This document shows positions 3,295 through 35,604 of a stretch of 41,552 bases of DNA, piece by piece; position 1 is the first letter of the stretch, and each line of letters opens with the position of its first letter. The notes beneath the pieces were generated by a model. The model made no database searches. It was not told the origin of the DNA and saw only the letters and a program-made list of their open reading frames with translations. The DNA is taken from NCBI GenBank assembly GCA_016199265.1, contig JACQGX010000380.1:1-41552 (forward strand). The letters are read 5' to 3'. Origin of the DNA: Chloroflexota bacterium (GTDB lineage: Bacteria; Chloroflexota; UBA11872; UBA12225). The position numbers and the translations under genes are program-made.

Positions 3295-3371
3295 GCGAAT
3301 GAAGAGTGAAGAGTGAAGAACGACGCATGACTGTGGGCCTTGGCCGTCGTTACCTTTCATTCTTCATTCGT
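3295..3371. repeat. Inverted repeat of GAATGAAGA/AGTGAAG words at a gene end
   Basis: The left arm has CGAATGAAG followed by tandem AGTGAAG units. The right arm is the complement of CGAATGAAGAATGAAAGG. ACGACG and CGTCG segments close to the loop also pair. The right arm covers the last six codons and the stop of the hydrolase at 3350-4099. It could act as a transcription terminator, but there is no clear U-run. The rest of the gap 3149-3294 holds only a short GC-rich palindrome (3193-3210) in the leader of the secreted-protein gene. Confidence 0.6.
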
Positions 3372-4099
3372 CTTGCCGCCGCCACAAACGCCTCGAACAA
3401 CCGCCGGTGTTCGGGACGCCTCGTCACTAGGTCCTCAGGGTGCCACTGTATCCCCATAACGAAGCGGCGATCCGGCGCTTCGATCGCCTCGACGATGTCG
3501 TCCTGCGTGTGCGCTGCCGGTGCGAGGGCAGCGGAGATCCGCTGGACTGCCTGGTGGTGGAACGAGTTGGTGTCAAACGGCCGGGCGGCGTGCTCGCCGA
3601 GGATCGCCGCCAGCGCTGTCCCGGCGTGCACCGTCACGGGGTGCGTTACCGCATCGCGCGGGGCGCGTTGTTGGTGAAGGAGGCCGTTGGGCCGCTGGAA
3701 GGGTAGGTCCTGCCAAAGGCTGCCGCCGAGCGCGACGTTAAGCACCTGGCACCCGCGGCAGATGGCGAGCACCGGAACATCGCGGGCGACGGCCTCGCGG
3801 GTCAGCGGCAGCTCAAAACGGTCGCGGTCGGGCTCCAACGCAACGCTGTCGTGCAGAATTGGTTGACCGTAATGCGCCGGATCGATGTCTTTCCCGCCGG
3901 TAAGGAGCACGCCGTCGACGCGGTCGAGCGCTGCCGCGACGGCGTGAAGATCGTCGACCGGCGGGAGCACGACCGGGATTCCGCCGGCGAGCGCCACTGC
4001 CGTCAGGTAGGCTTCCTTGGCGGTGACCATCGTCACGCCGGAGGACGTTTCGGTGCGGTGGCCGGTAACCCCGATGATCGGCCGCAGCGACGTATCCAT
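3350..4099 (-). CDS. Gamma-glutamyl-gamma-aminobutyrate hydrolase family protein (peptidase C26)
   Basis: A 249-residue class-I glutamine amidotransferase-like hydrolase of the PuuD type, which cleaves gamma-glutamyl amides such as gamma-glutamyl-GABA. The nucleophile elbow is AIC114RGCQVLNVALGG, and the His/Glu pair is H220/E222 in GIQWHPED. The N-terminus has the family pattern PIIGVTGHR, then DGVLLTGGKDIDPAHYG. The open frame extends much further upstream, but the ATG at 4099 is chosen because GAGGAG lies 6 nt before it and the family begins there. No polyamine pathway genes are adjacent, so the substrate is open. Its last codons (MKNER-stop) lie within a tandem-word inverted repeat, so the extreme C-terminus may have been altered by that repeat. 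Confidence 0.9.
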   Translation of the reverse strand: MDTSLRPIIGVTGHRTETSSGVTMVTAKEAYLTAVALAGGIPVVLPPVDDLHAVAAALDRVDGVLLTGGKDIDPAHYGQPILHDSVALEPDRDRFELPLTREAVARDVPVLAICRGCQVLNVALGGSLWQDLPFQRPNGLLHQQRAPRDAVTHPVTVHAGTALAAILGEHAARPFDTNSFHHQAVQRISAALAPAAHTQDDIVEAIEAPDRRFVMGIQWHPEDLVTRRPEHRRLFEAFVAAARRMKNER

Positions 4100-4123
4100 G
4101 TACGCTCCTCGACCTAGCATTCT

Positions 4124-33981: not shown

Positions 33982-35496
33982 TCAAATGGCACCGAGCTGG
34001 CGGGCCTTTTCCACCGCATCGTCGATCGTGCCGACGAGGTAGAATGCCTGCTCGGGCAGGTGATCGTGCTTACCGTCCAGGATTTCCTTGAAGCTCCGCA
34101 CAGTCTCGACGACCGGTACGTAGCGGCCGGGCACGTTGGTAAAGACTTCGCCGACGAAGAACGGCTGCGAGAGGAACTGCTCGACGCGCCGCGCGCGGTT
34201 GACGATGACCTTGTCGTCGTCCGACAATTCTTCCATGCCCAGAATGGCGATGATGTCCTGGAGGTCCTTGTACCGCTGCAGGAGCTGCTGCACGCCGCGC
34301 GCGACGGCGTAGTGCTCCTCGCCGACCACGCGCGGGTCGAGAATGCGCGACGTCGACGTCAGTGGATCGACCGCCGGGTAGAGCGCACGCTCGAAAATCG
34401 ACCGCTCGAGCGCGATTGTCGCGTCGAGGTGGACGAACGCCGCAACCGGCGCGGGGTCGGAATAGTCGTCGGCCGGCACATAAATCGCCTGGACCGACGT
34501 GATCGAGCCGCGCGTCGTCGACGCGATCCGCTCCTGCAACTGTCCCATTTCGGTGGCCAGCGTCGGCTGATACCCCACGGCGGACGGCATCCGGCCGAGC
34601 AACGCCGACACCTCCGAGCCGGCCTGCGTAAAGCGGAAAATGTTGTCGATGAACAGCAGCAGGTCCTGCTCTTCCTCGTCGCGGAAGTACTCGGCCATCG
34701 ACAGGCCGCTCAGGCCAACGCGCAGACGGGCGCCCGGCGGCTCGTTCATCTGGCCGTACACGAGCACCGCCTTCTCGAGCACGCCCGATTCCTTGAACTC
34801 GTTGTACAGGTCGTTGCCTTCGCGCGAGCGCTCGCCCACGCCGCAGAACACCGAGAAGCCACCGTGCTGGCGCGCGACGTTGTTGATCAGCTCCATGATC
34901 GTCACGGTCTTGCCGACGCCGGCGCCGCCGAAGATCCCCGTTTTTCCACCCTTGGTAAACGGCGCGATCAGGTCGATGACCTTGATGCCCGTCTCGAACT
35001 GCTCGGTCGTCGTCGCCTGCTGCTCGAAGCTCGGCGGCGGCCGGTGGATGGGGTACTTCTTGTCGGCCTCCACCGGCGGGCCCTCGTCGGTCGTCTCGCC
35101 GATGACGTTGAAGAGACGCCCGAGCGTGGCACGACCCACCGGCACGCTAATCGGCGCGCCGGTGTCGATCGCATCCATCCCGCGGCGGATGCCGTCGGTC
35201 GTGTCCATCGCCACGCAGCGCACCCAGTTATTGCCGATGTGCTGCTCGACTTCGAGCACCAGCTTGTTGGAGAGTTGGCTGACTCCGCCTCTGCCGGTAG
35301 GCGCCTCCGCGCCCCCGGCGACGCGCGCCGCACCGCCCGCTGCCCCCACTGCCCCGTTGGTCCCGTCCGACGTAACCTGGCCGTCGCGGTAAATCTCGAC
35401 CGCATTAAAGATATTCGGCATGTCGTCGGCGGGAAACTCACAGTCGACGACCGCGCCAAGCACCTGTACGATTTTTCCGCGTGCCCCTGCTGCCAT
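33982..35496 (-). CDS. atpD: ATP synthase beta subunit with an N-terminal insertion
   Basis: A 504-residue catalytic F1 subunit. The P-loop is G190-GAGVGKT197 ([20 protein letters not shown]). [19 protein letters not shown], then [20 protein letters not shown] and the nucleotide/DELSEED-region [20 protein letters not shown] are all present. The ATG at 35496 is chosen by GGAAGAGGAG 8 nt upstream. Between residues ~40 and 76, a Gly/Ala-rich insertion ([20 protein letters not shown], then [11 protein letters not shown]) interrupts the beta-barrel domain just before [12 protein letters not shown]. It makes the protein about 30 residues longer than usual. The insertion should sit on the crown of F1. 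Confidence 0.98.
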
Positions 35497-35573
35497 AGCA
35501 GTTACTCCTCTTCCTTTAGGTCGCTTAAGGCGATCAGTTGTTTCCACTGGGCGCGACCGACCGCGCCCCTCTA

Positions 35574-35604
35574 GATAACTGCCTGCTGCCTACTGCCTAC
35601 TACC
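35574..35604. repeat. CTGCCTACTGCCTAC word run between atpG and atpD
   Basis: Tandem CTGCCTA/CTGCCTG units without a recognisable complementary arm in the gap; a separate GGGCGCG-ACCGAC-CGCGCCC hairpin lies at 35552-35571. The word is the same as at 33893-33981, so atpD is flanked by it on both sides. The run begins 2 nt past the atpG stop. Confidence 0.75.

Follow-up and report, generated by a model that had tools for sequence, protein, structure and literature searches.

Repeats between the genes of the window

The window, the whole stretch of 41,552 nucleotides analysed here, is contig C346 of a Thermoflexus-related Chloroflexota MAG (430 contigs, 5.59 Mb, 77% complete). Inverted repeats with arms of short tandem words, to which an earlier note on this DNA had drawn attention, are indeed present along it. 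A tandem heptamer hairpin of the AGTGAAG type (3296–3370; arms 3296–3319 and 3347–3370; RNA fold z −5.5) holds in its right arm the stop codon of a minus-strand Peptidase_C26 gene (3350–4639), and the right arm of a nested hairpin at 31472–31600, in which CGAGGAA/CGAAGAA heptamer outer arms surround a TTCGACAGGCTCAGG hairpin, contains the stop codon of murA (31596), so that both genes end inside a word, as had been noticed. The gap between mrdA and rodA is filled by a nested element of the ACAGAG (8–10-mer) family (15502–15659), whose outer arms GCCACAGAG (15502–15510) and CTCTGTGGC (15651–15659) enclose a CCCCGGCGGGC hairpin (15519–15573) and a pair of CACAGAG arms (15601–15620 and 15638–15657). 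The CACAGAG pair, the part listed in the earlier note, is the inner portion of this larger element, which begins, with outer arm GCCACAGAG, 4 nt past the mrdA/PBP2 stop rather than at the 19 nt given before. A perfect 28-bp palindrome at 21845–21901, where AACCACAGATGCA outer arms (10-mer family) enclose a TTCGACTGCGC hairpin, is separated from the DUF6807 stop (21913) by 11 nt, and a hairpin with 10-mer arms (ACCACAGATGCACACCGATGCACAC) and a loop of 113 nt (23146–23322) lies 5 nt from the stop of the isomerase (AP_endonuc_2) gene at 23328; both distances were re-measured as originally reported.

Inside the atp operon, a family D hairpin with AGTAGGC arms (33894–33979) is flanked by the atpD stop (33982) on one side and the atpC start (33882) on the other; it adjoins the stop as described, at 2 nt instead of 1 nt. 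The atpD–atpC gap of same-family relatives ranges from 16 to 111 nt, and their atpD stops at the same place with a C-terminal extra of 0. The AGTAGGC array on the minus strand at 35574–35604 does begin 2 nt past the atpG stop (35607), but it is a single arm with no inverted partner (RNA fold z = +0.4) and not the hairpin it had been called. The CGAGGAA hairpin at 25828, formerly listed among gene-end elements, corresponds to a family B hairpin (25825–25909; arms AGTTCCG-AGTTCCT-GGTTCCT-CGTTCC; core pairs 30/30) whose position, in a MalK-type ABC gene's 5′ region, is not a gene end. Two further minus-strand elements have CTA...TAG-type ends, namely a complete copy of element H (CTAAACCAAGTGCAAAGTGCAAAGTGC...; 12168–12243), which carries the commonest heptamer and sits 12 nt upstream of mreC in the gap that separates it from mreB, and a second, diverged H-type copy (26150–26211).

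Repeats of other kinds were also observed. A separate dispersed palindromic repeat of ~105–130 nt, with ~80 hits in 1.49 Mb, occurs at 20301–20410 and 33295–33404 and has the layout TTCCGGATGCGGGGA...TGTAGGGGCGTAT...ATACGCCCCTACA...TCCCCGGAA with outer GGGTGCAGGCAA/TTGCGTGCACCC; its copy at 33295–33404 is the hairpin once placed 25 nt from atpC, which thus belongs to a different, non-tandem-word family. A 153-nt tandem repeat (2231–2810; 3.8 copies, 77% matches) lies inside a predicted minus-strand gene (2201–3115) with a weak BNR-repeat match. In an Rfam search of the window, a tRNA was the sole match; no relevant match was obtained at curated thresholds, eukaryotic miRNA models scoring the family D hairpin far below their cut-offs.

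Word families in the genome

Inverted repeats with periodic arms (80% pairing threshold) were searched for in 100 genome stretches of 1.26 Mb including the window, later extended to 1.49 Mb, with genes called by a purpose-written dicodon caller whose starts are uncertain and whose stops are exact for true genes. The detector returned 58 tandem-word hairpins in 1.26 Mb (46 per Mb), and 55 were left after removal of three artefacts, while a Markov-1 shuffle of the sampled sequence gave 0. Period 7 was found in 151 of 249 intergenic tandem arrays, against 4 from the whole shuffled sequence. The observation of tandem-word hairpins is confirmed as real and non-random; the genome as a whole carries hundreds of such repeats.

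When the words were clustered, a check proposed with the earlier note, the 55–66 hairpins sorted into ~7 families, so that the apparent use of a new word at nearly each locus is an artefact of the 41-kb window. Family A consists of 8–10-mers, ACC(G/A)CAGAGAC and relatives (19 hairpins; arms ACGGAGAC/GTCTCCGT, loops 9–193 nt), followed by F with GACGAAC/GACGAAG (11), C with AGTCCAA (10), B with AGTTCCG/AGTTCCT/GGTTCCT (8), E with GTCAGCG (7), G with GTGCAAA/GTGAAAC (6), and D with AGTAGGC (5). These unrelated words follow common rules: a period of 7 (or 8–10), a purine-rich 5′ arm, a single polarity for any given word, and an onset no more than a few nt from a stop codon. The 5′ arm is purine-rich on both strands in 52/64 hairpins here and 104/116 in other contigs, compared with 143:92 among ordinary inverted repeats. 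AGT was considered as an obligatory part of every heptamer, a rule dropped because it held for 87/151 arrays but for just 16/43 distinct words.

Arms are more conserved than loops. Loops of family D within this genome retain residual homology (17.6 vs 12.8 in shuffled sequence, sd 0.55), and those of family B have none to one another. Hairpins are nested within the loops of others in family A and at 15502–15659, 21845–21901, and 31472–31600. Flanks in families A, B, D, E, and F gave no match above background of the sort that a target-site duplication would leave. A repeat with TTCGACAGGCTCAGG / CCTGAGCGCAGTCGAAG is recurrently nested in word-hairpin loops and in H elements, forming the inner hairpins at 31472–31600 and 21845–21901 and occurring in the H copies of L055, L173, and L201.

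Position at gene ends

In co-directional gaps, hairpins start at a median of 4 nt past the stop codon, whereas elements placed uniformly in those gaps would have a median of 15 nt, with 0 of 5000 draws as low as 4 nt; 30 of 34 hairpins are closer to the stop than to the start that follows. For the non-tandem inverted repeats of this genome the median distance from the stop is 67 nt, and the TGTAGGGGCG dispersed repeat family has no stop-hugging of this kind. Where at least 60 nt of the gap is free, 5 of 11 hairpins are within 15 nt of the stop (1.3 expected, p = 0.006). Gaps below 60 nt hold just 4.9% of tandem-gap bases, and 27 of 38 hairpins have a host gap of this size once the length of the element is subtracted. 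Divergent gaps are nearly avoided, with 12:3 convergent to divergent hairpins on 33.7:49.7 kb of gap (p = 0.003). The stop-distance comparison over 1.26–1.49 Mb of sampled genome thus leaves the gene-end proposition of the earlier note standing, and the idea of one architecture placed at 3′ ends is supported. Contigs of other organisms with the same words, for which gene calls are cruder, have a convergent to divergent ratio of 18:7 (p = 0.017), and under the same cruder calls their elements are not significantly nearer stops than starts.

A subset with CTA...TAG ends

The commonest heptamer, AGTGCAA, is seemingly unpaired, yet it is part of a conserved element, H (CTAAACCAAGTGCAAAGTGCAAAGTGCAAAGTGAGGCGGCCTGCGGGTTCCACCTTGGCTTTGGTTTAG), mostly 69–83 nt long, which carries tandem heptamers in one arm and has 57 complete copies and 106 hits in 1.49 Mb. 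Its ends are C100 T91 A98 ... T96 A89 G91 over the 57 complete copies, and beyond C-TA and TA-G the flanking sequence is random. The simplest reading of these ends is that H is a MITE that would fit a TA duplication in CTAG. Family C (AGTCCAA) has H ends and, by these shared ends, probably belongs with H in a CTA...TAG subfamily. Two more repeats have CTA...TAG ends and other inner repeats (CTACGTGG, CTAAGCACC). The 76-nt repeat with CTACGTGG...CACGTAG ends has 9 genome matches (L013:9874–10017, L001:1–88, and L056:9711–9786 among them), one copy being nested in a family B hairpin loop and some lying at contig ends.

IS630-type transposons duplicate TA on insertion. Insertion of H at TA in CTAG would likewise duplicate the TA, which would then have arisen by copying of the target rather than belong to the inverted repeat, and a gene ending in TAG would become TA+A = TAA, in frame and with its length kept. 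H supplies the stop codon of a gene in 14 of 57 copies (12 TAA, 3 TAG), or in 14 of 53 (26%) of the copies outside genes. Of the 415 non-genic CTAG sites, 321 are intergenic and 94 (23%) fall at stop codons, a similar share, which suggests that H uses the CTAG sites on offer about evenly. Of 44 placed H copies, 11 lie in divergent gaps, against 3 of 53 hairpins of families A–G (p = 0.009); H is therefore not confined to gene ends whereas A–G are, and the placement of A–G needs an additional cause. As a possible autonomous partner of H, four IS630-type DDE_3 genes were considered and rejected, none of them having CTAAACC ends in the 77% complete MAG.

Distribution across genomes and contigs

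Same-family genomes searched included one Thermoflexus record and no member of the own genus, the closest AtpD among searched genomes being 82% identical, and no empty site was seen in these relatives. Octamers of family A occurred in 7 of 201 Chloroflexota genomes, with 66 matches here and 67 in G180, a genome of another family; other members of the own family or class searched, including sister genera, gave 0. AGTAGGC, likewise absent from sister genera, occurred in 3 of 201 genomes (64 here, 56 in G180, 13 in G089), and AGTCCAA in 1 of 301. Two genomes of the same family, sampled over 236 kb and 100 kb, gave no tandem-word hairpins, and ACCTGAA arrays were found at few loci in the Chloroflexota families f10 and f16. 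This patchy distribution is the pattern of horizontally moving repeats. G180, a distant genome of the same phylum (family f62; contigs C10, C80, C110, and C112), has octamer and AGTAGGC families in similar copy number, with hairpins in plus-then-minus order.

Applied to IMG/VR contigs in which A or D words occur, this detector found 119 hairpins at 101 loci, with period 7 in 79 and period 8 in 37. AGTAGGC had one polarity throughout (AGTAGGC-first 47:0). Whole elements with the same loop recurred amid unrelated flanks within single contigs (three times in L355, twice each in L300 and L308, and in L366, where one of three pairs also shares a flank), and the same interior at unrelated sites is what MITEs and other unit-moving repeats leave. 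Such recurrence shows that elements are dispersed as units in these contigs; in the own genome, as noted, family B loops are not homologous. Several further word families per contig, including AATTTGGT, AGTTCTC, GATTGAC, and GTCGATG, were observed at the uncultured viral-contig loci L300, L325, L333, L344, and L347, all as hairpins and mostly of period 7.

Nature of the hairpins

Given the word families, sharp ends, fixed polarity, dispersal as units in other contigs, patchy distribution, gene-end placement, and stop codons supplied by H, it seems probable that the hairpins represent dispersed repeats of a non-coding foldback (MITE-like) kind, in several families, with arms of tandem 7–10-letter words, and move as units. 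Elements would multiply and move as whole units, presumably by the action of a transposase, and their loops, less constrained than arms, would drift and receive other nested repeats. They would be retained almost solely in the untranslated strip directly 3′ of stop codons; for families other than H and C, this proximity may come from targeting of hairpins or of free 3′ regions, together with loss of harmful insertions. A candidate full-length transposon would end in CTAAACCAAG or in word arrays, with a transposase gene in between. No mobilising enzyme could be linked to the elements in the 77% complete MAG, where four IS630-type DDE_3 genes and one IS1182-type gene lack these ends.

The hairpins could instead be functional RNA 3′-end elements, acting as bidirectional terminators or exonuclease barriers and kept by selection on transcripts. 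Their median start at 4 nt past the stop, the avoidance of divergent gaps, the tighter association of A–G than of H with 3′ ends, and very stable folds (z −5.5 to −13) would all suit such a role. On the other hand, a U-tract follows 0 of 37 oriented hairpins, one hairpin lies within an operon between atpD and atpC, and loops reach 193 nt. Selection on the transcript should tolerate G-U over A-C, but sense-strand mismatches comprise 14 G-U and 24 A-C, so that no maintenance of pairing at the RNA level is visible. The terminator or RNA-stability role put forward in the earlier note is hence unsupported, and we regard this explanation as unlikely.

It seems more doubtful still that the rules common to the unrelated words reflect a single, unknown system across distant lineages that makes or moves word-armed hairpins, with the words changing from genome to genome; such a system would pick gene ends by structure or by translation state.

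Hairpins might also be made in place, by replication slippage of a word and template switching between strands that copies one arm onto the other. The dominance of period 7 and the near-perfect complementarity of arms could be seen in this light, and slippage of heptamers was proposed earlier (Mrazek, cited in PMC4679880). But words and word order are common to unlinked loci and distant genomes, several unlinked family B loci having the ordered string AGTTCCG-AGTTCCT-GGTTCCT in common. The outer ends are fixed in phase (AGT...ACT in B and D, ACC...GGT in A), which argues against random slippage, and polarity is fixed. For families of a single word (B, C, D, and E), arm identity, in a test somewhat biased by the 80% pairing threshold and by best-register comparison, is 0.92 within elements and 0.91–0.92 between elements, so that there is no sign of one arm having been copied onto the other; families A and G, with their mixture of sub-words, are uninformative in this respect. 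In other contigs, loops recur together with arms. Spread by copying of arms, as previously suggested, is contradicted by the equal arm identities, by the 47:0 polarity, and by the whole elements with the same loop amid unrelated flanks, and an in-place origin, already disfavoured by these sequence patterns, appears very unlikely.

Our verdict is that the hairpins, rather than having been created gene by gene, belong to a class of bacterial foldback repeats that is incompletely understood. Reports of heptamer and octamer repeats in bacteria go back to ~1990, and, to our knowledge, a general account of their spread is lacking. Our data link them to inverted, fixed-polarity, unit-moving elements just 3′ of stop codons, and the CTA...TAG subset offers a testable mechanism in which insertion brings a new stop codon, so that hundreds of gene-end copies can accumulate without truncating proteins.

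Relation to known repeat systems

REP, BIME, and REPIN sequences are extragenic palindromes near gene ends that form large families. The elements here differ in having arms of tandem words, and no RAYT (Y1) transposase was found, a search of the own genome (77% complete) for Y1-type TnpA-REP (PF01797) giving 0 matches while control genomes were positive. IS630/Tc1-type MITEs are exemplified by the pneumococcus RUP and the Correia elements. H and C are like them in being short and non-coding with inverted ends and TA borders in a CTAG context, but H is unlike them in carrying tandem heptamers in one arm, and no IS630 copy with H ends was found in the MAG. The eukaryotic foldback (FB/TU) transposons have long inverted arms of short tandem repeats and a variable loop; the elements here are bacterial and far smaller (~80 nt), and are likened to them by architecture. 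Tetris is a further comparison element of the foldback type (PMC4079207).

Stem-loops, often situated directly 3′ of genes, are replaced when IS1272, of the IS1182 family, transposes, and no target duplication results (PMC5678879). A mechanism of this type would fit the position, nesting, and missing duplications of A–G, although IS1272 and IS1182 are full insertion sequences and the elements here are non-coding. An IS1182-type transposase gene (PF13751) with 13-bp inverted ends CTGTCGGAGAAAC was observed at L015:5549–7010. This one IS1182-type gene, on C15, was rejected as a mobiliser, its ends CTGTCGGAGAAAC being unrelated to the words; this end and the TTCGACAGGCTCAGG repeat have CGACAGGCT in common, possibly by chance.

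The statement in the earlier note that no known family explains the architecture holds insofar as the elements are not obvious REP/RAYT sequences, but it overlooks both the paired repeats of Geobacter (PMC2700814) and the heptamer repeats of other bacteria (PMC4692102, PMC4679880). The latter comprise the STRR of Calothrix and Nostoc, GGGAATC of Xanthomonas, and TAACTGA of Beggiatoaceae (PMC4692102, PMC4679880), those of Xanthomonas and Nostoc often lying within 50 bp of a stop codon (PMC4692102, PMC4679880). As in STRR-type repeats, tandem heptanucleotides lie between genes here, and both are patchy over phyla; STRR-type heptamers are mostly unpaired direct repeats, whereas those here form inverted pairs with fixed polarity and sharp ends.

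A published system with the same paired architecture is that of Geobacter metallireducens, where, in a 2009 account, three to five tandem octa- or heptanucleotides are paired on opposite strands at variable distance in many copies, grouped as 'global regulator binding sites' of classes 1–3, and read as IHF/HU sites, one set, according to that account, resembling sequences of many further genomes (PMC2700814). Compared via the published consensus, class 2, TCTCCGTS[Y], is the reverse complement of the family A word ACGGAGA (PMC2700814), and family A likewise has tandem words on opposite strands at variable distance. It seems very unlikely that the paired words are binding sites of a chromosome-organising (IHF/HU-like) protein here too, as that account has it for Geobacter: the same paired architecture with the almost identical word TCTCCGTS (PMC2700814) and the stronger conservation of arms than of loops would suit this, but seven unrelated words within a single genome would require several proteins or one shape-reading protein, and absence from sister genera is ill-suited to a core chromosome function. 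The hairpins differ from the repeats of Geobacter metallireducens, described as protein-binding sites, in their Chloroflexota host and in that their 3′-end placement and nesting have been measured.
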